Assembly: GCF_019039255.1 (NCBI RefSeq)
Contig: NZ_CP077062.1
Location: 1,178,001-1,242,000 of the forward strand
From: Nocardioides panacis
Lineage (GTDB): Bacteria > Actinomycetota > Actinomycetes > Propionibacteriales > Nocardioidaceae
Reading direction: 5' to 3'
Length of the DNA: 64,000 nt
The notes under the pieces were generated by a model. It saw only the letters and a program-made list of their open reading frames with translations, was not told the DNA's origin and did no database searches. Made by a program: the position numbers and the translations under genes. This document shows, one piece after another, positions 13,203 through 24,245 of this stretch. Every line of letters begins with the position of its first letter. Position 1 is the first letter of the stretch.

Positions 13203-14582
13203 GTGAGTAGATCGGTCGCTGCCGTCCGTCGTACGACCCGCCTGTTCGTCGTGCTCGTGACCTCGCTCGCCGCGATGGCCGCCTCGGCCCTGGCGTACGC
13301 CGACGGCGTCGACGTCTCGCACTGGCAGGGGTCGGTGAGCTGGACCAAGGTCAAGGCCGCCGGCATGCAGTTCGCGTTCATGAAGGCCACCGAGTCGACC
13401 ACCTACACCGACACCCAGCTGGCCACGAACTGGGCCGGCACGCAGGCCGTCGGGCTCTACCGCGGCGCGTACCACTTCGCCCGGCCGAGCACGAGCGCCG
13501 GCTCCGCGGCCAAGCAGGCGGCGTACTTCGTCTCCAAGGTCGGCTCGTTCCAGAACCCCGGCACGCTGCCGCCCGTGCTCGACCTCGAGGCCAGCGGCGG
13601 ATTGGGCGTCACCACCCTGCGGACCTGGACCGCGACCTGGCTCAGCGAGGTCGAGCGGCTCACCGGCCGGGTCCCGATGATCTACGTGTCCCCGGCCTTC
13701 TGGGAGCACTACCTCGGCAACAGCACGGCCTTCACCCGCTACCCGCTGTGGATCGCGCACTACGGCGTGAGCAGCCCGCGGGTCCCCGGCGGCTGGCCCA
13801 CCTGGACGTTCTGGCAGCGCACCAGCAGCGGCTCGGTCAGCGGCATCTCCGGCAACGTCGACATGAACCGCTTCAACGGCACCACCGCGCAGCTCGCCAC
13901 CCTGGCGATCACCACGGGCGGCTCGTCGGTGCCGGTGCCCCCGGGCCCGAGCGTCCCGGCCGCCTCGCCCACCGCGCTCACCGCGACCCCCTCCGCCACC
14001 ACGGTGCCGGCGCGCGGCGCCCTGTCCATCTCGGGGTCGCTGACCCGGAGCACCGACGGCGCCCCGCTGGCGAACCTGCCCGTCGTCCTGCAGTCCCGCC
14101 CGGTCGGCAGCTCGACCTGGAAGACGCTGGGCACCGTGACCACCGACGCCAACGGTGCGTACGTCGCGGTGACCACCGTGCCGAGCGCCACCGAGTACCA
14201 GACCGTGTACGGCGGTGACGGGTCCACGCTGGCCCCGGCCACCTCGCCCCGCGCGCAGGTGCTCAACCCGGCCCCGGCGCGGGTGACGGTCTACCTGCAC
14301 AAGAACAAGACCGCCAAGGTGCGCAAGGGCACCGCGGTGATGGTCTACGGCCACATCAAGACCGCTGCCGGGCCGATCACCGGAAAGTACGTCCGGTTCT
14401 ACCAGCGCAAGGCCGGCACCAAGCGCTGGTCCTACGTGCGCCGTACCGCCAGCCTGTCGCCCACCGGGTGGTACTCCACGGTCGTGCGGCCGCGCCGCTC
14501 GACGACCTACAAGGCGGTCTCGTTCGCGGCCCCCGGGCTGCGCTCGAGCACCTCGAACCTGACCACCGTGCGAACCCGCTGA
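13203..14582 (+). CDS. Secreted GH25 lysozyme-like muramidase
   Basis: 459 residues from GTG 13203, with GGAGG upstream. A Sec signal peptide (residues 1-33, core LFVVLVTSLAAMAASALAYA) is followed by a glycoside hydrolase family 25 domain (35-245): the N-terminal DGVDVSHWQG with the catalytic-site Asp, the catalytic DxE as VLDLEASG (127-129), MIYVSPAFW, and WTFWQRTSSG. After a Pro/Ser linker come two beta-sandwich repeats (about 265-360 and 365-459) of the kind that bind cell-wall polymers. It should cleave the MurNAc-GlcNAc bond of peptidoglycan outside the cell. It ends at a strong shared inverted repeat facing the M50 protease gene. Confidence 0.9.
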   Translation: MSRSVAAVRRTTRLFVVLVTSLAAMAASALAYADGVDVSHWQGSVSWTKVKAAGMQFAFMKATESTTYTDTQLATNWAGTQAVGLYRGAYHFARPSTSAGSAAKQAAYFVSKVGSFQNPGTLPPVLDLEASGGLGVTTLRTWTATWLSEVERLTGRVPMIYVSPAFWEHYLGNSTAFTRYPLWIAHYGVSSPRVPGGWPTWTFWQRTSSGSVSGISGNVDMNRFNGTTAQLATLAITTGGSSVPVPPGPSVPAASPTALTATPSATTVPARGALSISGSLTRSTDGAPLANLPVVLQSRPVGSSTWKTLGTVTTDANGAYVAVTTVPSATEYQTVYGGDGSTLAPATSPRAQVLNPAPARVTVYLHKNKTAKVRKGTAVMVYGHIKTAAGPITGKYVRFYQRKAGTKRWSYVRRTASLSPTGWYSTVVRPRRSTTYKAVSFAAPGLRSSTSNLTTVRTR

Positions 14583-14594
14583 CCCACCCACCAA

Positions 14595-14648
14595 CCGGGT
14601 CGTCCGGTTGAGCGCGCGCCCTAGCGCCCCCGCAACCGGACGACCCGG
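14595..14648. terminator. Bidirectional terminator between convergent lysozyme and M50 protease genes
   Basis: CCGGGTCGTCCGGTTG at 14595-14610 pairs perfectly with CAACCGGACGACCCGG at 14633-14648 (16 bp, 22-base loop). There is no clear U-tract, as is common in high-GC actinobacteria. It lies 12 bases after the lysozyme stop and just beyond the reconstructed stop (14655) of the protease gene, which supports that stop over the one at 14621 inside the loop. Confidence 0.8.
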
Positions 14649-17197
14649 GGTTCGCTAGGGCGTCGGCGTCGCGTCGGCGGCCGCGGGCGTGGCGTCCGGC
14701 GTGGGCTCCGACGGGGTCGGGGTCGGGGCCGACGACGCGGTCGGGGCCGGGGGCGTGGTGTCGGTCGACGTACCGGAGGGGCGCCGCCGGTGCTGCTGGT
14801 GGCGGTCGGCTCGCTGCTCGTCGCCGTCGTGGGGTCCCCGGCGGTGGGGGACGCGAGGCCCGTGGGAGTCACCCCGGTGCTCGGGCTCGCGCCGTCGGAG
14901 GGGGTGGCGGTCGGCGCGGCGGTGGGAGTGCCCGCGAGCGGGCCCTGCTCCTTCTCGATGATCCCCAGGATCTGCGTCTCGTAGGCGCTCAGCCGGGACC
15001 GGATCTCGGAGAGCGGCACCTCGGTGATGTGCGTGCCGAACGACGCGATCTCCTGCCAGAGCGCGGAGATCTGCTGCGTGCCGGCCTCGCTGAGCGGTCC
15101 GTCGAGGGTCACGAAGAGCTGGGTGGCCAGGGCGTAGGTCAGGCAGTTCACGCAGTCGGAGTTCACCGCCGCCGAGATGTTCTGCGGCACCGCGACGTGG
15201 TTGTCGCCCGTGACGAGCACGATCTGGAAGCCCACCGCGACCGCCGCGCAGTTCGTGCAGCTGGCGAACGCGTAGGCCTCGTTCTTGTTCATCGCCGGGG
15301 AGTCGTCGTCGATCCACACGAGGGCGAACGCGACGTCGTACTGCACGGTGTTGTCGGTGGTGTTCACGGCCATCGACTGGTTGTCGCCCTCGCCGGGGGC
15401 GAGCGGCTTGTCGAACGGGAAGACCCACGACTGCGGAGCGGCGGGTGCCGGGTCGGCCGGGGCCCCGGGGGCCGTGGCGGGCTGGTCGCCGGGCACCGGG
15501 GTCGCTCCGTCCGCGCCGGTGGACGGGGTGGGTGCGGAGGCGGCCTCGACGGTCGAGCCGTCGCCGCCGTCGCCGCCGTCGGTGCCGTCGCTGCCCGGGG
15601 TGCCGGAGCCGTGCGGGACCAGCACCATCGCGAGCTGGGGGTGCTCGCGGGTGGGCCGTGCGTCGCCGTCGGCCCAGCCGGTGACCAGCGTGCCGCGCTG
15701 CCCCTCGACGAGGCCGGACGGTGCCGGACGGACGGCGGCCGGCAGCGCCTGGGCGACCTGTCGCAGGGTGCCGCCCTCGTAGGGCTGGATCGGGCGGTAG
15801 GTGTCGGGGTGCGGCCACCAGGCCCAGGCCAGGCCGGCGACCAGGGCGGCGGCCACGAGGCCGGCGACGCCACGGTGCAGCGGCCGGCCCTGGGTGCGGG
15901 TGAGGACCGACCGGACGACCGAGCGGACCAGCCGGGTGAGGATCACCGCGGTGGCCAGGATCGGGAAGGTCACCGCCAGGATCGCGACGCCGCGGGCGGC
16001 GACCTCGAGGAAGTCGGCGTCGCCCCAGGCGCGTCCCAGCAGCGTGGACTGCTTGCCCAGGCCTGCCCAGGCGGTGCCCAGGATGCGGGGGAGCGTGACG
16101 ACCATGGTGAACATCGAGAACGCCAGCATCGGCACCACGACCAGCACCCACAGCGTGACCACGATGCGCGCCCACGGCTTGAGCACGGTGCTCTCGGGGT
16201 GCCGCCAGCGCCAGGGCAGCACGCCGAGCAGGGTGGGCCGGATCCGGTGGAACAGGTCGGGGACGCCGGTCACGTCGGCCAGCACGTGGTAGCCGTCGAA
16301 GCGGACCAGCGGGGTGAGCTGACGGACCATCTGCAGGATCTGGGTGGCCACGACGAGCAGCAGGGCGTCGTACCCGGTGGCCCACCAGACGCCGGCGATG
16401 CCCACGGCGACGATCGCGTTGAAGTACAGGCCGCCGAGGTCGGTGCGCACCCGGCCTCCCCGGCCGAGCCGGTAGGAGTCGGTGACGTCGGTGTAGAACG
16501 CCGGCCAGACGAGGTAGACGCCGGCACCCATCACCCCGGGGGTGGCGCCGCCGCGGCGCGCGCCGGCCGCGTGCCCGAACTCGTGGAAGCCGGCCGACAG
16601 GACCGTGACCAGCACGACGAGCAGCAGCAGGCCCGGCTTGTCGAAGGCTTCGTACGTCGCGGACGCGAGCCCCTTGCGGAAGAACACCCACCAGCTGACG
16701 AACCCGAACGCCGCCATCACCGCCGTGACGACCACGGGGTGGAACAGCCGGGCGAAGGGCGAGGTGAGCCGCCGGGTCTGCTCCGGGTCGCTGACGGCGT
16801 ACTTGAACCGCAGCGCCAGAAGCGGGTTGGACTTCCTGACCTCCGGCTGCGAGCCGTCCTCCTTGGCGAGCAGGCCCATCGGCCGGAGCTGCTGGTCGAC
16901 CAGCGTGCGGATGTTGTCGGCGGTGACGGTCCGCCCGTAGGCAGCGCCGACCTGCGCTGCGACGGCCTCGTAGTCGCGCTGGCCGTCGACGGTCTCCAGG
17001 ACGAGGTAGAGCAGCGGGGTGAGCTGGAACGTCTGCCCGTCGCCCCGGCGGGCCAGCGCCGGCGGCACGCGGTAGCCGGAGCCGACCATCTGCCCGATCA
17101 GCTCGACGCCGTCGGCGCGCACCGGCGCACCGACGACGGGACGCGACGGCGCCGCAGCGTCGTCGCGTCCCGTCGAGGAGCCCGGGAGGACCGTCAT
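14621..17197 (-). CDS. PqqD-like domain/M50 membrane zinc protease with CxxC extracellular domain (C-terminus frameshifted)
   Basis: 858 residues as sequenced. Residues about 27-110 resemble a PqqD/RiPP-recognition winged helix (RADGVELIGQMV; FQLTPLLYLVLETVDGQRDYEAVAAQV). A multi-spanning M50 domain follows, with the zinc motif HEFGH at 205-209 inside a membrane helix and the third-ligand motif RFDGYHVLAD at 299-308. After the last helix (about 443-462) comes a Pro/Gly-rich linker and a domain with paired CTNC (647-650) and CVNC (682-685), then a Thr/Pro/Ser-rich tail. Near 14778-14781 the frame switches into an Arg/Pro string ending inside the terminator loop. Restoring one G keeps the Thr/Pro composition to a stop at 14655, giving about 847 residues. 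It begins 7 bases after the repeat-protein gene. It resembles YydH-like peptide zinc metalloproteases; processing of the upstream protein is my inference. Confidence 0.8.
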   Translation of the reverse strand: MTVLPGSSTGRDDAAAPSRPVVGAPVRADGVELIGQMVGSGYRVPPALARRGDGQTFQLTPLLYLVLETVDGQRDYEAVAAQVGAAYGRTVTADNIRTLVDQQLRPMGLLAKEDGSQPEVRKSNPLLALRFKYAVSDPEQTRRLTSPFARLFHPVVVTAVMAAFGFVSWWVFFRKGLASATYEAFDKPGLLLLVVLVTVLSAGFHEFGHAAGARRGGATPGVMGAGVYLVWPAFYTDVTDSYRLGRGGRVRTDLGGLYFNAIVAVGIAGVWWATGYDALLLVVATQILQMVRQLTPLVRFDGYHVLADVTGVPDLFHRIRPTLLGVLPWRWRHPESTVLKPWARIVVTLWVLVVVPMLAFSMFTMVVTLPRILGTAWAGLGKQSTLLGRAWGDADFLEVAARGVAILAVTFPILATAVILTRLVRSVVRSVLTRTQGRPLHRGVAGLVAAALVAGLAWAWWPHPDTYRPIQPYEGGTLRQVAQALPAAVRPAPSGLVEGQRGTLVTGWADGDARPTREHPQLAMVLVPHGSGTPGSDGTDGGDGGDGSTVEAASAPTPSTGADGATPVPGDQPATAPGAPADPAPAAPQSWVFPFDKPLAPGEGDNQSMAVNTTDNTVQYDVAFALVWIDDDSPAMNKNEAYAFASCTNCAAVAVGFQIVLVTGDNHVAVPQNISAAVNSDCVNCLTYALATQLFVTLDGPLSEAGTQQISALWQEIASFGTHITEVPLSEIRSRLSAYETQILGIIEKEQGPLAGTPTAAPTATPSDGASPSTGVTPTGLASPTAGDPTTATSSEPTATSSTGGAPPVRRPTPRPRPRPRRRPRPRPRRSPRRTPRPRPPTRRRRPSEPRVVRLRGR

Positions 17198-17204
17198 CCG
17201 GGTG

Positions 17205-18041
17205 CTACTGGGCGATGTCGGAGGTCTGGTCCGACGTCGCGTCGGCAGAACCGGTGATGTCCTGGTTGATGATGGCGTCCTGCTGGGAGACGGCGATCGC
17301 GTCGCTGCCGACCGAGCCCACGTTGGCGCCGACGGCCGCGTCGATCGGGGCGGCCACGTTGGCGTTCGCCGCGACCGCGCCGTTGATCGGGGCGGCCACG
17401 TCGGCGTTGGCGTCCACGTTCACGTCCACGTTGAGCAGGTTCCCGTCGAGCAGGCTGCCCGCGCCGCCCGCGGCACTGCCCACAGCACCGCCCAGGCCAC
17501 CGGTCGCGTCGCCCACGGCTCCGCCGGTCGCGTCGCCGACTGTGCCGCCGGTCGCGTCACCCACGGCTCCGCCGGCCGTCTCGCCGACCGCACCGGTGGC
17601 GCCGTCGACCGCACCACCGAGAGCGTCGCCGAGGGGCGTGGTGGTGCCGGCGGTCGAGACGTCGGCCGGGGCCGCGGCGGGCGCGGTCGCGTCGGCGGGA
17701 GCGGTGCTGGTGTCGTTGCCCTGGTCGAGGGCGCTGTCCTGCACGGCGTGCGCGCTGGCGTCGGCGTCGAGGCCCTGGTTGATGATCACGCCCTGGTCGC
17801 TGAGGGCCTGGGCGGTGGAGTCCACCGAGAGCACGTTCGCGCCCACCGCGGCGTCGATCGGCGCGGCCACGTTGGCGTTGGCGGCGACGGCGAGGTCGAT
17901 GGGGGCGGCGGCGTCGATCGCGAGGTTGATGTCCGCGTTGAGGTCGAGGATCGACACGACTTCCTTGTCCGGAAGCGCGGTCGCCCCCTGGGCGTCGAGC
18001 TCCTCGGCCGAGAGGCCGACGTCGGGCTGGTTGGCGTTCAT
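17205..18041 (-). CDS. Repeat-rich Asn/Ala/Asp protein, candidate substrate of the adjacent M50 protease
   Basis: 278 residues from ATG 18041, with GGAG upstream. There is no signal peptide or membrane helix. Residues 1-33 are charged and leader-like (LSAEELDAQGA, ALPDKEVVSILDL). Two long repeats follow, about 34-97 and 203-267, sharing the identical 20-mer AVAANANVAAPIDAAVGANV (51-70 and 222-241) and a QGVIINQ/QDAIINQ motif. Between them is an Ala/Thr/Pro stretch and three tandem GGxVGDAT units (about 157-182). There are no Cys residues. Spacing of 7 bases to the protease gene implies one operon. I recognise no named family. It could be a processed structural or adhesive protein, a RiPP-like precursor, or an ordinary low-complexity protein. 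Confidence 0.7.
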   Translation of the reverse strand: MNANQPDVGLSAEELDAQGATALPDKEVVSILDLNADINLAIDAAAPIDLAVAANANVAAPIDAAVGANVLSVDSTAQALSDQGVIINQGLDADASAHAVQDSALDQGNDTSTAPADATAPAAAPADVSTAGTTTPLGDALGGAVDGATGAVGETAGGAVGDATGGTVGDATGGAVGDATGGLGGAVGSAAGGAGSLLDGNLLNVDVNVDANADVAAPINGAVAANANVAAPIDAAVGANVGSVGSDAIAVSQQDAIINQDITGSADATSDQTSDIAQ

Positions 18042-18172
18042 CGGGTTCTCCGTTTCCGGCGCGCGGTGCACGCGCACGACCTGGTGGGTGGAGGCGCGTG
18101 TACCCGGACGGCAGAGCGACAAACCCCCTTGAATTACAGGGGAAACGGCACAGCTCCCGGTCGTGGGCGCTC

Positions 18173-18191
18173 GTTGTGCACCGTGCACAAC
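18173..18191. promoter_or_regulatory. Perfect 9-1-9 palindrome in a divergent intergenic region, candidate operator
   Basis: GTTGTGCAC, one central C, GTGCACAAC. It lies in the 249-base gap between the repeat-protein/M50 operon and the secreted metalloprotease gene, 132 bases from one start and 100 from the other. A smaller hairpin (CCCCT at 18125-18129 with AGGGG at 18138-18142) lies beside it. The size and symmetry fit a dimeric repressor such as a GntR or LacI type; the cognate regulator is not in the window. Confidence 0.55.
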
Positions 18192-18290
18192 CGGCTCCGA
18201 CCGTGAGACGTCGGCCCTGTCTTCTCAAGTCCGTCCCGCGCGGGTCCGATGCTCCAGGAGTCACACCGGAGGGCTTGGGAGGGCTTTTCA

Positions 18291-19980
18291 ATGCGGATCC
18301 GCGCCGTCGCGCGCCTGGTCGTCGTCTCGCTGGCGGCGGCCGGAGCGCTGGTCCTGGTGCACCCCGCCGTCGCGGACTCCGAGAACGGCGGGCCGGTGTC
18401 GGTGGCGGGCGCGTCAGGCACCCTGGCCCACCCCGGCGAGCTGGGCCCCGTGCACATCGACCCGGTGCCGCACGACGTGAGTCTCTCCGACCCGGTCGAC
18501 ACCGTCTCGCTCCTCGAGAAGGCCGGCGTCGTCGGCGCCCGGCTCGCCGCCGCGGACCAGCCGATGACGGTGGGGGCGACCGCGCCGCTGGGCACTCCCG
18601 GGATCAGCTCGCTCGGCAGCCACGTCACGCCGTCCTGCACGAGCAGCGACGCGGACCGGGTGCAGGTGCTCTACGTGCACGAGGCCACCACGACCTCCCG
18701 CTACACCCAGGTGCTGCCGCTGATCCGCAACGAGGTCGCCAACGTCGACGACGTGTTCGCGGTCTCGGCCGAGCAGACCGGGGGCGGGCGACGGGTCCGC
18801 TGGGTGCACACCGCGGACTGCCTGCCCGTCGTCCTCGACGTGGCGGTCCCGGCCGGCGCGCTCGGGCCCGACTTCTGGGACACCATCGACGCTCTGCAGG
18901 CGCAGGGCTACGACCGCGCGGACCGCAAGTACATGGTCTTCGCCGACACGAACCAGTTCTGCGGCATCGGCACGGTGTACGACGACGACCGTCTCGTCGG
19001 CAACCTGAACGACGGGCGGGCGGCGTCGTACGCCCGGATCGACGCGAACTGCTGGTCCTCCGGGCACTCGGTGCCGGCGCACGAGCTGACCCACAACCTG
19101 GGCGGGGTGCTGCCGGGTGCGCCGCACGCGACGGCCAACGGGCACTGCTGGGACGAGTCCGACCTCCTGTGCTACGACGACGGATCAGGCGTGCCCATGC
19201 AGCGCGTCTGCCCGTCCTCGCAGGAGCAGCTCCTCGACTGCAACCACGACGACTACTTCAGCACCGACCCGGTGCCGGGGTCGTACCTCGCCACGCGCTG
19301 GAACACCGCCAGCTCGAGCTTCCTGGACACGGTGCCCGGTCCCGTCGTCGCCCCGAGCGTGCCGGCCCCGAGCGCCCCGGCGCCCGCCGTGCCCGACGCC
19401 CCGCGCGTGCCGACTCCGGCGTCCCCGGTCCCGGTCGGCACCGCGTGGTCCGTGCCGACGGTGAGCCGGGACACCGTGCACGCGACCCTGCTCGCCGCAG
19501 GCGCTCCCCCAGCCGGGCACGAGCGTCCACCTCCAGGCCCGGTGGGCCGGCAGCACCCGGTGGGTCGAGGTGCGGCGGCTGACGACCGACAGCCGTGGTA
19601 CGGCGAGTGCGCCCGCGTCGTACGCCACCGCCGGGGTGGTGCGGTTCGTCCTCGACGGCGACGCCGCGCGCAGCGGCTCGGCGTCCGCGGCCGTGCGGGT
19701 CAGGGTGTCCACCCGGGTCTCCGGCACCGCCGGGCGTCGCCGGGTCGCGGCCACGCTGCACACCGTCGGGGGCCGGGGGATCGTCCGCGCCGTCCTCGTC
19801 CTCCAGCGACGGGACCCGGCCAGCGGCCGGTGGTCCGCCGTGGCGCGGCAGCGGACCGACGCCCGCGGAGCGGCGGTGCGACGAGTCGTCCTCACCCGCG
19901 GGACCACCTTCCGGTGGGTGTTCGGCGGCGAGGTGCTGCACGCGCCGGCCGCGAGCCCGGCGCTCCGGGTCCGGCCCTGA
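18291..19980 (+). CDS. Secreted zinc metalloprotease with HELTH motif (C-terminus frameshifted)
   Basis: About 562 residues after repair, from ATG 18291 preceded by GGGAGGG. Signal peptide 1-28 (VVVSLAAAGALVLVHPAVA). The zinc site AHELTHNLGG puts HELTH at 264-268. The surrounding Cys-rich catalytic region (NQFCGIGTVYDD, DANCWSSG, GHCWDESDLLCYDDG, QEQLLDCNHDDYF) resembles extracellular gluzincin/metzincin-like proteases of actinobacteria. A Pro/Ala/Val linker (about 355-395) leads to a beta-rich C-terminal domain. At the C5 run 19506-19510 the frame is lost. Removing one C continues it as PQPGTSVHLQARWAGSTRW and on to a TGA at 19978-19980; the uncorrected frame is Arg/Gly nonsense to 19994. 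It is divergent from the M50 operon. Confidence 0.75.
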
Positions 19981-20065
19981 AGGTGCGCGGGTGAAATACA
20001 GCGGTCGGCACCGGTGTTCTCCGCGGGACAGGTCCTGTCCCCTCCCGCAAGGAGCACCCCTCCGC

Positions 20066-21145
20066 ATGAGCCAGCTGTTCACCCCGATCCGCCTGCGCGA
20101 CCTCGAGATCCGCAACCGTGTCTGGGTCTCGCCGATGTGCCAGTACTCCGCCCGGGACGGTGTGCCCAACCAGTGGCACCTGGTGCACCTCGGGTCGCTG
20201 GCCCGGGGCGGTGCCGGCCTGGTGATCACCGAGGCGACCGCCGTCGTGCCGGAGGGGCGCATCTCCCCGGCGGACACCGGGATCTGGAACGACGAGCAGC
20301 AGGCCGAGTGGGCCCCGATCGTCGACTTCCTGCACGACCAGGGAGCGAGTGCCGGCATCCAGCTCGCGCACGCCGGCCGCAAGGCCTCGAGCCAGGTCCC
20401 GTGGGAGGGACGCGGGGCGGTCGCGGACGACGCCGGTGGCTGGCAGCCCGTCGCCCCCTCCGCGGTGGGCTTCCCGGGGCTGCGCGAGGACCCGGCCGAG
20501 CTCTCCGGCGCCGGCATCGCCGCGGTCGTGGAGGCCTTCGCCGCGGCAGCCCGCCGGTCCGTCGCGGCCGGCTTCGACCTGGTCGAGCTGCACGCCGCGC
20601 ACGGCTACCTGCTGCACGAGTTCCTGTCCCCGCTGTCGAACCACCGTGCGGACGCGTACGGCGGCTCCTTCGAGAACCGGGCCCGCCTGCTGCTCGAGGT
20701 CGTGGACGCCGTCCGGGCCGCCGTGCCTGACACGCTGCCGGTGGTCGTGCGGATCTCCGGCACGGACTGGACCGAGGGTGGCTGGACGATCGAGGACTCG
20801 GTGCGGCTGACCGGGCTGCTGCGCGAGCACGGGGTCGACCTCGTCGACGTCTCCAGCGGGGGCAACGTCGCCGACGCGCCGATCCCGGTGGGCCCCGGCT
20901 ACCAGGTGGACCTGGCCCGGCGGGTGCGCGCCGAGGGCGGGCTGCCCAGCGGCGCGGTGGGTCTGATCACCGAGCCGAAGCAGGCCGAGGAGATCGTCGC
21001 CTCCGGCCAGGCCGACGTGGTGCTGCTGGCCCGCGCGGTGCTCCGCGACCCGCACTGGCCGCTGCGCGCCGCGCACGAGCTGGGCGTGTCCGTCGGTGAG
21101 GGCGTGGAGTGGCCGCCGCAGTACGCCCGGGCCGCGCTCGGCTGA
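20066..21145 (+). CDS. Old yellow enzyme family NADH:flavin oxidoreductase (YqjM class)
   Basis: 359 residues from ATG 20066 (AAGGAG upstream). The (beta-alpha)8 FMN enzyme is recognised by LFTPIRLRDLEIRNRVWVSPMCQYSA, whose Cys is the FMN-tuning cysteine of the thermophilic-like class, by HAGRKAS, by FDLVELHAAHGYLLHEFLSPLSN and by ADAYGGSFENRARL. It should reduce activated C=C bonds with NAD(P)H. The native substrate is not predictable. It converges on the LLM-class oxidoreductase, with only three bases between the stops. Confidence 0.92.
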   Translation: MSQLFTPIRLRDLEIRNRVWVSPMCQYSARDGVPNQWHLVHLGSLARGGAGLVITEATAVVPEGRISPADTGIWNDEQQAEWAPIVDFLHDQGASAGIQLAHAGRKASSQVPWEGRGAVADDAGGWQPVAPSAVGFPGLREDPAELSGAGIAAVVEAFAAAARRSVAAGFDLVELHAAHGYLLHEFLSPLSNHRADAYGGSFENRARLLLEVVDAVRAAVPDTLPVVVRISGTDWTEGGWTIEDSVRLTGLLREHGVDLVDVSSGGNVADAPIPVGPGYQVDLARRVRAEGGLPSGAVGLITEPKQAEEIVASGQADVVLLARAVLRDPHWPLRAAHELGVSVGEGVEWPPQYARAALG

Positions 21146-21148
21146 GCC

Positions 21149-22076
21149 TCACAGGTGGGGCAGCACCTGCTCCGCGACGAGGTCGAGCTGCTCGAGGTCG
21201 GTGAGGTCGAGGACCTGCAGGTAGGCGCGGGAGGACCCGGCCTCGGCGTACGCGCCGAGGCGGTCCACCACCTCCTGCGGGGTCCCGGCCAGGCCGTCCT
21301 CGCGCAGCTCGCCGACCTCGCGGCCGATCGCGGCCGCGCGGCGGGCCAGCTCGGCCTCGTCGCGTCCCACGCACAGCACGAGCGCGTTGGAGTACGCCAG
21401 CTCGTCGGCGTCACGTCCCGCGCTCTCGCAGGCCTCCCGCACCCGGGCGACCAGCTCCCGGGTGGTCCCTACCGACGCGAACGGCACGTTGAACTCGTCG
21501 GCGTAGCGCGCGGCCAGCGCCGGCGTGCGGCGCTTGCCGCGCCCGCCGATGATCACCGGCGGGCGCGGTGACTGCACCGGCTTGGGCAGCGCGGGGGGAG
21601 TCGAGGAGCCGGTAGTGCACCCCGGCGTGGCTGAACGTCTCGCCCACCGGCGTGGTCCACAGGCCGGTGACCACCGCCAGCGTCTCCTCCAACCGGTCGA
21701 AGCGCTCGCCGGCCTCCGGGAACGGGATGCCGTACGCCGCGTGCTCGGCCTCGAACCAGCCGGCCCCGAGTCCCAGCTCGACGCGGCCGCCGCTCATCTG
21801 GTCGACCTGGGCCACCGAGATCGCGAGCGGGCCGGGCAGCCGGAAGGTCGCCGACGTCATCAGCGTGCCGAGCCGGATCGTCGAGGTGTCGCGGGCCAGC
21901 CCGGCCAGCGTCAGCCACGCGTCCGTCGGCCCGGGCAGGCCGTCGCCACCCATCGCGAGGTAGTGGTCGGAGCGGAAGAACGCGTCGAAGCCGAGCTCCT
22001 CGGCCCGGCGCGCGACGGCCAGCAGGTCGTCGTACGTCGCACCCTGCTGCGGCTCGGTGAACACCCGGAGATCCAT
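21149..22076 (-). pseudogene. LLM-class F420/flavin-dependent oxidoreductase, single-base frameshift
   Basis: The gene reads well in two frames. From ATG 22076: MDLRVFTEPQQGATYDDLLA, AEELGFDAFFRSDHYL, GLGAGWFEAEHAAYGIPFP, ending at LLDSP. Then, from LPKPVQSPRPPVIIGG, another frame runs to the stop at 21149. Removing one G from the G6 run at 21593-21598 joins them as LLDSPALPKPVQ followed by SPRPPVIIGG, exactly the pattern expected in luciferase-like monooxygenases, giving 308 residues. Such enzymes use F420 or FMN. As sequenced the protein is broken, but the rest is undamaged, so a sequencing error is likelier than decay. Confidence 0.8.
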
Positions 22077-22144
22077 GCGTCCACTGTGACACCCCGGGAG
22101 ACACTCCGCCCATCGGTAGGCATAAAGTGGAGTAAACCAGTAGA

Positions 22145-22154
22145 CTAACGTTAG
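22145..22154. promoter_or_regulatory. Short palindrome in the promoter region of the LicD-fusion operon
   Basis: CTAACGTTAG lies 44 bases before the cytidylyltransferase start in the 121-base divergent gap from the LLM-class gene. This part of the gap is AT-richer than its surroundings (GGCATAAAGTGGAGTAAACC at 22118-22137), as expected of a promoter. Operator function is only a suggestion. Confidence 0.3.
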
Positions 22155-22197: not shown

Positions 22198-22650
22198 ATG
22201 AGCGCAGTGATCGGGTACGCGCCCGGTGCGTACGACCTGTTCCACGTGGGACATCTCAACGTGCTGCGGCAGGCGCGCCAGCACTGCGACGTCCTGGTGG
22301 CCGGCGTGGTGGCCGACGAGGTCTGCGAGCTCACCAAGGGCGTGCGGCCCTTGGTCCCGCTCGAGGAGCGCCTCGACATCGTCGCGAGCATCGGCATCGT
22401 CGACGAGGTGTACGCCGAGACCACCACCGACAAGCTCGACGCCTGGCAGGACGTGCGCTTCACCCGGATCTTCAAGGGCGACGACTGGCGCGGCACGCCC
22501 AAGGGCCGCGCGCTCGAGGAGCGGCTCGGTGCCGTCGGCGTCGAGGTCGTCTACTTCCCCTACACGATGCACACCTCCAGCACGATGCTGCGCCGGGCCG
22601 TGCGGTCCCGTGCGGCTGCCCCGTCCCTGACCGTCCCCGCGATGGCCTGA
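22198..22650 (+). CDS. TagD-like cytidylyltransferase family protein
   Basis: 150 residues from ATG 22198 (CAGGAGGGG upstream). The nucleotidyltransferase HxGH motif is in GAYDLFHVGHLNVLRQA, and the second family motif, normally RTxGISTT, is YTMHTSSTMLRR. LVPLEERLDIVASIGIVDEVY and FKGDDWRGTPKG match the TagD/ECT group, which makes CDP-activated alcohols (glycerol, ethanolamine or similar) from CTP. It is the first gene of a three-gene operon with a LicD-methyltransferase fusion, so it probably supplies a CDP-activated group for surface-polymer decoration; the specific alcohol is unknown. Confidence 0.8.
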   Translation: MSAVIGYAPGAYDLFHVGHLNVLRQARQHCDVLVAGVVADEVCELTKGVRPLVPLEERLDIVASIGIVDEVYAETTTDKLDAWQDVRFTRIFKGDDWRGTPKGRALEERLGAVGVEVVYFPYTMHTSSTMLRRAVRSRAAAPSLTVPAMA

Positions 22651-24245
22651 TGGCGTCCCCGGTCCTGGTCGCCGACGGGTGCGACGTCGACGACCACGGG
22701 ATCACCCTGCCCTCGTCAATCGACGGCGTCGTCACGGTGTCGCTCGACGGTCGGTACATCTGGTCGTTCCGGCCGCGTCGGGACGCCCTGCCCGGGCCGC
22801 GCGGCCCGGTGGTCGCCTGGCCCGCGTTCCTGCGTCCGCACCTGCGGGGCACCACCCGGCTCACCCTCGCCGAGCCCGGCTCCGGCCGCACGTACGTCGA
22901 CCGCGAGGTCGTCCTCGGGGACGGCGGCGCCGACCGCATCGCGGTGGTCGACGTGCACGGCCACCCGCTGGCCGTGAACAAGGTCGGCAACCTGACCCGG
23001 GTGTTCTCCGAGACCGACGACGACGCCCGCCGGGAGATCCTCCGCGGCACGGCCCTGGTGCTCGAGGACCTGCGCGAGCACGGGGGAGCCGAGGCGTTCC
23101 TCAACTACGGCTGCCTGCTCGGCGCGATCCGCAGCGGCCGGATGATCGGCACCGACTGCGACGCCGACCTCTGCTACCTGAGCGAGCAGACGCACCCGGC
23201 CGACGTGATCCTCGAGTCCTACCGGCTGGAGCGCGCGATGACCGCCCGCGGATGGCCCACCGTGCGGATGTCCGGCGGCGACTTCAAGGTGCTGCTGCGG
23301 CTTGCGGACGGCCGCACCTGCTACGTCGACGTGTTCGTGGCGTTCTACACCGAGGGCACCTACTACCAGCTCGGCAACCGCAGCGGCCGGCTGCCGCGAT
23401 CGGCCGTGCTGCCGACGTCGACGGTGGTCCTCGAGGGCGTCGAGATGCCCGCGCCGGCGGACCCCGAGGCGATGCTGGCGTTCGTCTACGGCCCCGGTTG
23501 GCGGGTGCCGGACCCCTCGTTCAAGTTCGCCGACCCGGCGCGCGGGGTGCGCCGGCTCGACGGGTGGCTGCGCGGCTACCGGGACGAGCTGCCGGCCTGG
23601 AACGCGTTCTTCCGCAGCGCGGAGGCGGCCGAGGTGCCCCGCAGGCGCTCCGGCTTCGCCCGGTGGGTGGCCCTGCGGGTGCTGCTCGGTGACACGCTCG
23701 TGGAGCTCGGCTCGGGCACCGGGCGCGACGCCGCCTACTTCGCGCGCCGCGGCCACCGGGTGCAGGCCTACGACATCTCCCCGGACGCCCGGCGGGCGAC
23801 CCAGCGTCGGCTGCGCAGGAGCGACGACGAGGCCGCCGTACGACGGCTGATGCTGGACGAGCTGCGCACCGTCGCGGTGACCGGTGCCGAGATCGGGCTG
23901 CTCGCGGGCCGGCGGCACGTGTACGCGCGCGGCCTGGTGGGCTGCCTCGGGGCCGAGGCCCGCCGCAACCTGTGGCGGCTGGCCCGGATGGCCCTGGACG
24001 GCGACCGCGGCTGCCTGTTCCTGGAGTTCTCCGCGACCCGGCCCGACCTGCCCGACGCGCTCGCGCCCGCCGGCCTGAACCGCCGGGTGGACGCCGACAC
24101 CGTGGTCGCCGAGCTCGAGGCGTGCGGCGCCCGCGTCGACCTGCGCGTCGAGCGCCCGGGCACCGACCTCCTCGACCGGCCCGACCCCTGGACCTGCCGG
24201 CTGCAGGTTACCTTCCCGAGCACTGGAGCGAACCGCCATGTCTGA
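22650..24245 (+). CDS. LicD-like nucleotidyltransferase fused to a SAM-dependent methyltransferase-like domain
   Basis: 531 residues; the ATG at 22650 overlaps the upstream TGA by one base. An N-terminal beta domain (1-130) precedes a LicD-type transferase domain with LNYGCLLGAIRSGRMIG and the acidic TDCDADLCY (about 151-176). LicD proteins transfer phosphocholine or related groups from CDP donors. From about residue 350 a methyltransferase-like domain begins with motif I VELGSGTGRDAAYFARRGHR and AYDISPDARR. Its later motifs are less standard. The combination suggests transfer and methylation of a phosphoamino-alcohol on a surface glycan (inference). Teichoic-acid-like or glycolipid targets are possible. 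Confidence 0.7.
   Translation: MASPVLVADGCDVDDHGITLPSSIDGVVTVSLDGRYIWSFRPRRDALPGPRGPVVAWPAFLRPHLRGTTRLTLAEPGSGRTYVDREVVLGDGGADRIAVVDVHGHPLAVNKVGNLTRVFSETDDDARREILRGTALVLEDLREHGGAEAFLNYGCLLGAIRSGRMIGTDCDADLCYLSEQTHPADVILESYRLERAMTARGWPTVRMSGGDFKVLLRLADGRTCYVDVFVAFYTEGTYYQLGNRSGRLPRSAVLPTSTVVLEGVEMPAPADPEAMLAFVYGPGWRVPDPSFKFADPARGVRRLDGWLRGYRDELPAWNAFFRSAEAAEVPRRRSGFARWVALRVLLGDTLVELGSGTGRDAAYFARRGHRVQAYDISPDARRATQRRLRRSDDEAAVRRLMLDELRTVAVTGAEIGLLAGRRHVYARGLVGCLGAEARRNLWRLARMALDGDRGCLFLEFSATRPDLPDALAPAGLNRRVDADTVVAELEACGARVDLRVERPGTDLLDRPDPWTCRLQVTFPSTGANRHV

Follow-up and report, generated by a model that had tools for sequence, protein, structure and literature searches.

The question raised by this locus is what an M50 membrane protease with a PqqD-like N-terminus does beside a repeat protein that carries no export signal. 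The locus lies in a window of 64,000 nucleotides (the whole stretch of DNA that was analysed) from Nocardioides panacis, a high-GC actinobacterium with a complete 4.9-Mb genome in one contig (NZ_CP077062.1). A first-pass annotation of the window had proposed that the repeat protein is recognised through its N-terminus, is cut at or in the membrane and then acts outside the cell jointly with a secreted, divergently encoded HELTH protease; of this interpretation the pairing, the RRE domain, the leader-like N-terminus and the homology to YydH/LiaK stood up to comparison, but the joint role of the HELTH protease did not. Its description of a 278-residue protein without export signal holds (no signal peptide by eye), and reading of the coordinates likewise places the start of the M50 gene (17197) 7 bases downstream of the repeat gene and the HEFGH motif at residues 205-209. 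Genes around the pair were called with a simple gene caller, and Pfam supplied their names (Table 1).

Table 1. Coordinates of the features of the locus, in window positions.
Feature	Position	Strand	Remarks
GH25 gene	13203-14582	+	gene caller, Pfam name
RRE/PqqD-M50 membrane protease with C-terminal CxxC ectodomain	14621..17197	-	858 aa as read
CxxC ectodomain of M50 protein, residues 598-745, two CxxC pairs	14963..15406	-	C647, C650, C682 and C685 invariant in 46 aligned sequences
FDGYH second active-site motif, residues 300-304 (D301-G302)	16286..16300	-	D and G invariant in 32/32
HEFGH zinc motif of M50 protein, residues 205-209	16571..16585	-	H, E and H invariant in 32/32 diverse members
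RRE/PqqD domain of M50 protein, residues 32-104	16886..17104	-	three strands followed by three helices in the AlphaFold model
Repeat protein, 278 aa: leader, N-block, variable linker, C-block	17205..18041	-	proposed substrate
C-block of repeat protein, residues 198-278	17208..17450	-	homologous to N-block
N-block of repeat protein, residues 30-112	17706..17954	-	homologous to C-block and array peptides
Leader region of repeat protein, residues 1-29	17955..18041	-	L-P-D-K-E-V at residues 23-28 (17958-17975)
Perfect 9-1-9 palindrome	18173-18191
HELTH protease gene	18291-19994	+	gene caller
Oxidored_FMN gene	20066-21145	+	gene caller, Pfam name

Full-length M50 homologues (at least 53% identity) occur in 10 of 98 genomes, the own genome included, at 11 loci, and the repeat-protein profile matches exactly those 10 genomes; since the same genomes carry both genes, the pairing is not due to chance. 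Two further genomes give M50-query matches without a repeat-protein match: in G085 the match is 39% identical and two short peptides (63 and 65 aa) are encoded upstream, and in G086 it is confined to the ectodomain region (E 5.8e-4). Named contigs, when scanned, yielded 289 M50 relatives, from Arthrobacter, Pseudarthrobacter, Sinomonas, Nocardioides, Mycolicibacterium, Kribbella, Geodermatophilus and other genera. In 79 of the best 80 of these 289, which were examined for neighbours, the repeat protein stands directly upstream on the same strand (78 from gene calling and one, L041, from reading frames), and the remaining one (L076) has a C-terminal fragment of it only. No third gene is conserved beside the pair among the best 80 of 289, the next commonest family being found in 30 of the 80, and the plasmid collection gave five records, none with at least 80% query coverage. 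Judged from this distribution, the repeat protein and the PqqD/M50 protease are a real, co-inherited two-gene system. Co-occurrence and lasting adjacency, the check put forward by the first-pass annotation, are thereby borne out, and repeat homologues found mostly without the M50 gene, which would have told against it, are not what the genomes contain. It could be argued from the commonness of M50 proteases (PF02163 exceeds its cut-off in 14 of 14 control genomes) that an ordinary site-2 protease lies here beside unrelated neighbours; this reading was rejected as extremely improbable, being contradicted by the co-occurrence in the same 10 of 98 genomes, by the adjacency in 79 of the best 80 of 289 relatives and by the leader motif test described below.

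As a separate observation, the top match among the best 80 of 289 (L034:6116-9478, 76%) lies on a contig labelled Intrasporangiaceae, and relatives from the own genus reach at most 67%, less close than L034; either transfer from family to family or a problem with the label may be involved.

In the M50 protein, residues 32-104 form three strands followed by three helices in an AlphaFold model (block mean pLDDT 70-96), which is the strand-helix order given for RREs in the excerpted text of PMC12710340. Against an alignment of 20 PF05402 hits, hhalign gives this region 94.0% with the window-type alignment and 90.7% with the diverse alignment, and four other segments of the diverse M50 alignment, taken as a control, reach at most 0.3% against the PF05402 profile. 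PF05402 itself touches the homologous gene in G078 at 20.8 bits, below the cut-off of 23.4, and the Pfam scan of the window M50 protein gave no match to any family at E ≤ 10, PF05402 and PF02163 included. The domain thus shares strand-helix order and a profile match with PqqD and discrete RREs (PF05402), and differs from them in being fused to a protease and in lying below the Pfam cut-off. Model order and the 94.0% profile comparison agree with the PqqD/RRE resemblance first noted for this N-terminus, and the structure prediction, which might have spoken against a winged helix there, did not. Foldseek returned no PDB match at E ≤ 0.001; the RiPP maturase SkfB (6efn) appeared at rank 32 (probability 0.28, 79 columns, rmsd 3.3), and of the PDB sequence searches one gave three weak matches (best E 0.11) and another none.

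The proteolytic part is of the site-2 (M50) type: HExxH and the distal D-G are invariant in 32/32 diverse M50 members, the model shows a helical membrane part, and the window protein has both motifs in membrane helices. In NCBIfam it scores 102.3 bits against the daptide protease NF041824 (cut-off 300), 25.3 against YydH/LiaK NF058609 (cut-off 225) and 13.5 against ApyI (cut-off 200); distant M50 members reach 37-59 bits against NF058609, again below the cut-off of 225, and none of the scanned proteins of the system attains a curated Pfam or NCBIfam cut-off. By these scores the window M50 protein is a relative of the daptide and epipeptide proteases and not a member of either family; the YydH-like relation suggested earlier therefore stands as homology, to YydH/LiaK and to daptide proteases, but not as membership, both scores falling below the curated cut-offs.

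The proposed substrate carries a leader-like N-terminus, in which L23, P24, K26, E27 and V28 are invariant in 45 aligned repeat proteins, so that the part singled out at first sight as the recognised one does prove, by comparison, to be conserved. Its two blocks are homologous to each other (hhalign 99.7%) and match short peptides encoded in arrays elsewhere (97.7% for the N-block, 98.0% for the C-block), and in L027, L028, L031 and L032 the linker between them contains long VVDSAGNVIGVLDGATGNVV-like repeats. Among 396 genomes of the phylum the repeat profile matches 21, 11 with both blocks and 10 with short matches, which correspond to genes, mostly in tandem, for peptides of 64-75 aa and, in L165 and L169, to two-unit proteins. 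The M50 core matches 43 of the 396 genomes, 30 at 34% identity or more over most of the query and 12 weakly, the match in G426 being a 47-residue piece. Twenty of the 21 repeat genomes are among the 31 M50 genomes (the 30 and G426); in the exception, G103, the leader peptides are encoded where a 5.6-kb contig begins, and there is no M50 match. In the 11 M50 genomes without a repeat match the leader peptides are of other kinds: those of five genomes from a single family (6-11 Mb) are about 71 aa long with LLPGREAL-like leaders, the cores are His/Gly-rich in a sixth (G391) and bear Cys in G164 and G304, and G231, G170 and G266 have other core types, those of G170 and G266 seen only as open frames. 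By type, the leader consensus is E-L-(E/D)-x7-L-P-x-(R/K)-(E/A/D)-x-(M/L/V); between types an 18-residue leader window is 28-54% identical and the 28 residues that follow are 4-35% identical (2 of 45 window-type sequences, with the motif too near the called start, were dropped from this comparison). A conserved leader followed by a variable core, the layout expected of a RiPP precursor, is what these genes have.

The pattern LPx[KR]E, derived from columns that do not vary in the window-type family, was searched within 2.2 kb upstream of the M50 start, in open frames whose start codon precedes the motif by 8-45 codons, at 123 of 125 loci (L162 and L167, without an M50 match, were left out); the loci are related and not independent, hence no P value is given. 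Over all loci it occurs upstream in 114/123, on the opposite strand of the same stretch in 1/123 and in 24 of 846 other segments. The count at window-type loci (at least 52%), 94/95, is not independent of the origin of the motif; at distant loci (below 52%) it is 20/28 upstream against 1/28 on the opposite strand and 1/104 in other segments, at least three of these 28 (L173-L175) coming from genomes with two-block matches. A looser leader pattern (109/123 upstream, 15/123 on the opposite strand, 74/421 other segments) was replaced by LPx[KR]E, and a narrower one found 68/123. Among the nine misses, the leader is a variant one in L210, L215, L216, L218 and L221 and lies in the opposite orientation in L166 and L170 (both by eye), and L076 is the fragment; L222 has an M50 gene without a leader gene in the stretch examined, and peptides are encoded beside an ectodomain gene elsewhere in the same genome (L162).

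The two-block form may be explained by a locus in G426 (L223), where the two blocks are encoded by neighbouring genes (98 and 113 aa) that both have an LPDKEAMS leader, and the M50 gene is a short piece, interrupted inside a contig of 21,571 bases. Most simply, the window repeat protein would be a fusion of two precursors in which the second leader was lost, with fission as the alternative.

These data are best accounted for, in a reading held to be somewhat probable, by a two-gene, leader-guided processing and release system with no modification enzyme beside it. Against this reading count the exceptions L222, G103 and G426, the poor model of the repeat protein, the cores that lack the glutamine feature and the lack of an evident dedicated exporter. 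An RRE together with tandem precursors is typical of RiPPs, the nearest named relative of the protease is the daptide protease (102 bits) and some distant cores carry Cys, so that a true RiPP pathway has to be weighed, in which enzymes encoded elsewhere would modify the core, the RRE-protease would cut it and a bioactive peptide would be secreted, as with daptides. This appears unlikely: no third gene is conserved (the commonest family in 30/80, best 80 of 289; a LuxR-type HTH in 7/29 distant loci), the daptide dehydrogenase model has no over-cut-off match in the genome of the window, and two-block substrates, at about 200-490 aa, exceed the usual size of a RiPP. According to the available portions of PMC10036551, the daptide class was found through an RRE fused to a site-2 protease, that protease removes the leader, and the step relying on the RRE of MpaB requires the leader residues L(-7) and M(-4). 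The present system resembles daptides, as described in the same portions, in having the RRE at the N-terminus of an intramembrane site-2 protease (MpaP/DapP, NF041824) and precursors whose short leader is conserved and which can be numerous at one locus; unlike daptide loci, it has no conserved dehydrogenase, aminotransferase or methyltransferase beside the protease, and it has a CxxC ectodomain, substrates up to protein size and an L-P-x-[RK]-E leader. The three matches of daptide_DH NF041822 in the genome of the window are all under the cut-off and more than 2 Mb from the pair. Of the aminotransferase, DUF-RRE protein and methyltransferase that a daptide cluster has, none appears as a conserved gene beside the pair, and the methyltransferase-like part of one neighbouring gene (22650-24245) matches daptide_MTase at 16 bits against a cut-off of 175. 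A daptide cluster was rejected on the sub-cut-off protease, the lack of a conserved third gene and the lack of an over-cut-off daptide_DH.

Epipeptide loci (YydH/LiaK, EpeP; NF058609) are similar, as far as PMC10885120 was available in part, in encoding an M50 intramembrane protease with its peptide; here, unlike there, no radical-SAM epimerase is among the conserved neighbours and the cores differ. In the same partial text EpeP is thought to cut and to export, and its deletion did not abolish the product. That source also provides the precedent for another reading, in which the precursor would be a scaffold cut from its C-terminal end, as by the M50 proteases TglG/TmoG of pearlins, and with which the conservation of the C-terminal Gln (44/45) would agree; it is highly improbable, given that amino-acid-adding enzymes are not conserved beside the pair (best 80 of 289 loci) and that the nearest named relatives of the protease remove leaders. 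In this reading the leader-guided system is a variant of daptide/epipeptide-type processing. No description of a pair of repeat protein and RRE-M50 protease was found in titles and opening abstract lines of open-licence literature, and the present family is not mentioned in the excerpts of PMC10885120, PMC12710340, PMC10036551 and PMC12338566.

The C-terminal part of the protease, the CxxC ectodomain, is a separate protein in several other loci (homologous at 99.8%, hhalign), most of these proteins having an apparent signal peptide by eye; the ectodomain thus seems to act on the outer side of the membrane and to be a companion of the protease. A role in signalling is frequent among site-2 proteases and, together with the lack of a signal peptide in the repeat protein, would fit an M50 protease that cuts or acts with the repeat protein inside the cell, by regulated intramembrane proteolysis or degradation, with nothing exported. 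Such intracellular action is quite unlikely, in that the CxxC part, separate and with its apparent signal peptide in several loci (by eye), points outside, and in that RRE-fused proteases are known for leader removal (PMC10036551, in the portions available). The ectodomain is at most a possible homologue of the cores: the window-type ectodomain gives 40.0% with array cores, 9.2% with the C-block, 2.0% with Streptomyces-like cores and 1.2% with the N-block (hhalign), its alignments to the N-block, C-block and array cores share one register, and separate ectodomains reach at most 2.9%.

In two loci (L049:5530-6081 and L070:5595-6095) the CxxC ectodomain is encoded once more, as a protein of its own, upstream of the repeat gene. 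In L033:8196-10472 (G085) the C-terminal part of the 39%-identical RRE-M50 protein reads as a MinD/ParA-type ATPase; upstream of the RRE-M50 gene two short leader peptides are encoded, and downstream of it a separate CxxC protein.

The cores themselves were matched over cut-off by no family in the Pfam and NCBIfam scans, and in the Pfam scan of the repeat protein an unrelated weak match was the sole result, with no chaplin or curlin family over cut-off. A glutamine pattern recurs in several core types. In both blocks of the repeat protein glutamines stand at the same 6-12-6 spacing (Gln83/89/101/107 and Gln254/260/272/278), five of the eight positions being conserved in 45/45 sequences and the others in 40, 42 and 44 of 45. 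Hydrophobic moments favour beta over alpha (z +4.4 and +4.8 at 180 degrees, -3.1 and -4.1 at 100 degrees), and an AlphaFold model, poor as a whole (mean pLDDT 55), has strands at 76-92, 95-106, 247-263 and 266-277. Q-x5-Q within the last 22 residues is found in 23/23 array, 10/10 Streptomyces-like, 2/2 L033 and 3/3 L223 peptides, against shuffle means of 2.7, 2.0, 0.15 and 0.36, respectively, some shuffles reaching the observed value in the small L033 and L223 sets; it is scarce in the Cys-bearing (1/4, shuffles 1.2), His/Gly (0/3) and other (0/2) cores. For window-type proteins, several of which have C-terminal extensions, the excess in the last 30 residues is modest (32/45 against 17.8 in shuffles). 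Curlin repeats place N or Q regularly in a beta-patterned core. The likeness of the present cores to curlins and chaplins (PF03777), in short beta-patterned cores with regular N or Q, is one of sequence pattern only, and the present proteins differ in lacking a Sec signal and in having an RRE-type leader and a different Gln spacing; one distant peptide (L217) matches the chaplin model weakly (15.5 bits, E 0.016, cut-off 21 bits). Because some cores lack the glutamine feature and the last-30 test of window-type proteins is modest, beta-stacking cannot be general.

In the leader-guided reading, the repeat protein would be made in the cytosol as a precursor, and its leader (E-L ... L-P-D-K-E-V) would be bound by the N-terminal RRE/PqqD domain of the M50 protein, a recognition that the sequence comparisons leave well supported. 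From the invariant active site and the homology to daptide and epipeptide proteases it may be inferred that the intramembrane site-2-type protease then cuts the leader off, and, by likeness to the suggestion made for EpeP, that the core would leave the cell, perhaps with the help of the protease itself. Outside, the beta-patterned core with its glutamine ladder might, speculatively, stack into a surface material near or on the CxxC ectodomain. A broader and more doubtful proposal, possible at best, is a Sec-independent, leader-directed machine for release and assembly in Actinomycetota, in which one RRE-site-2 protease would handle many unmodified cores through the L-P-x-[RK]-E leader and free them at the membrane, fibres or coats would be seeded on its own CxxC ectodomain, and two-block proteins would have arisen from fused short precursors. 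The RRE logic is known from small modified natural products, and here the substrates appear to be unmodified, protein-sized or tandem, and spread over many actinobacterial genera. If the leader-guided reading is right, it would add a further route of protein release at the Gram-positive cell surface; one leader with many cores would be a natural series for the study of leader recognition, and the leader could direct other cores.

Besides protease, ectodomain and peptides, the commonest families at the 29 distant loci are a LuxR-type HTH in seven, an XRE-like regulator and a 75-aa protein in six each, and a small leaderless peptide and an ABC-type ATPase in five each (the ATPase in L223 looks like FtsE); from these neighbour families no dedicated exporter is evident. 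The XRE-like regulator and the 75-aa protein are present in the Streptomyces-like loci L207, L208, L209, L211, L212 and L213, and the LuxR-type HTH is the companion in seven distant loci other than these six. The leaderless protein, of 53-76 aa with a core-like GxNAxIxxN segment, is found in 5/29 distant loci (L163:7828-8034, L165:3830-3991, L166:7607-7825, L168:1834-2064 and L169:6712-6876). In L210:3643-4911 (G391) three tandem leader peptides have His/Gly-rich cores with Cys, which differ from every other core type and are possibly metal-binding.

The remaining part of the first proposal concerned the HELTH protease and the perfect 9-1-9 palindrome in the divergent region. Both the divergent arrangement and the palindrome are as first described. 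A place for the secreted protease in the system, where it would trim or release the product, could be sought in its divergent position in the window and in a 51% homologue near the pair in L042, but this is the only such homologue in 80 loci (best 80 of 289 relatives; some stretches end at contig ends), none is found near the pair at the 11 loci of the 98-genome set, and of the 15 genomes (among 98) in which this protease family occurs, 11 have no full-length M50 gene. Both families occur in the own genome, in G001 (different contigs), in G028 (about 1.1 Mb apart) and in G044 (at least about 0.36 Mb), the two being adjacent only in the own genome among the 98. The window copy, moreover, seems to change frame, since against its homologue L226 frame 1 extends to about 19328 and frame 2 from about 19522 (38%, 61 residues). 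A part for this protease in the system, and with it the joint action first envisaged, is very improbable, and the candidate was rejected for lying near the pair almost only in the own window, L042 excepted.

The palindrome pattern is unlikely to arise by chance (5/100 shuffles gave a match with up to 3 mismatches); palindromes of its size are not rare, the window holding six distinct ones with arms of at least 9 and loops of at most 2. Among 224 loci it is found in only four, all from the own genome, and on this ground it was rejected as a conserved operator.

Frame changes, real or due to sequencing errors, are likely at 14621-14790 and 19328-19522 of the window, in the tail of the M50 gene and in the HELTH gene. 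The last 50 or so residues of the M50 frame (Arg/Pro-rich), beyond about 14790, are probably read in the wrong frame, since the Ser/Thr/Pro tail that L034, the nearest relative, has is encoded in another one. At 21149-22150 a luciferase-like monooxygenase gene also seems split between frames, the called piece matching only profile positions 158-244. The gene at 22650-24245 encodes a 531-aa protein with a LicD-like and a methyltransferase-like segment, which lie below the Pfam cut-off except for Methyltransf_11 (21.4 against 21.2 bits).
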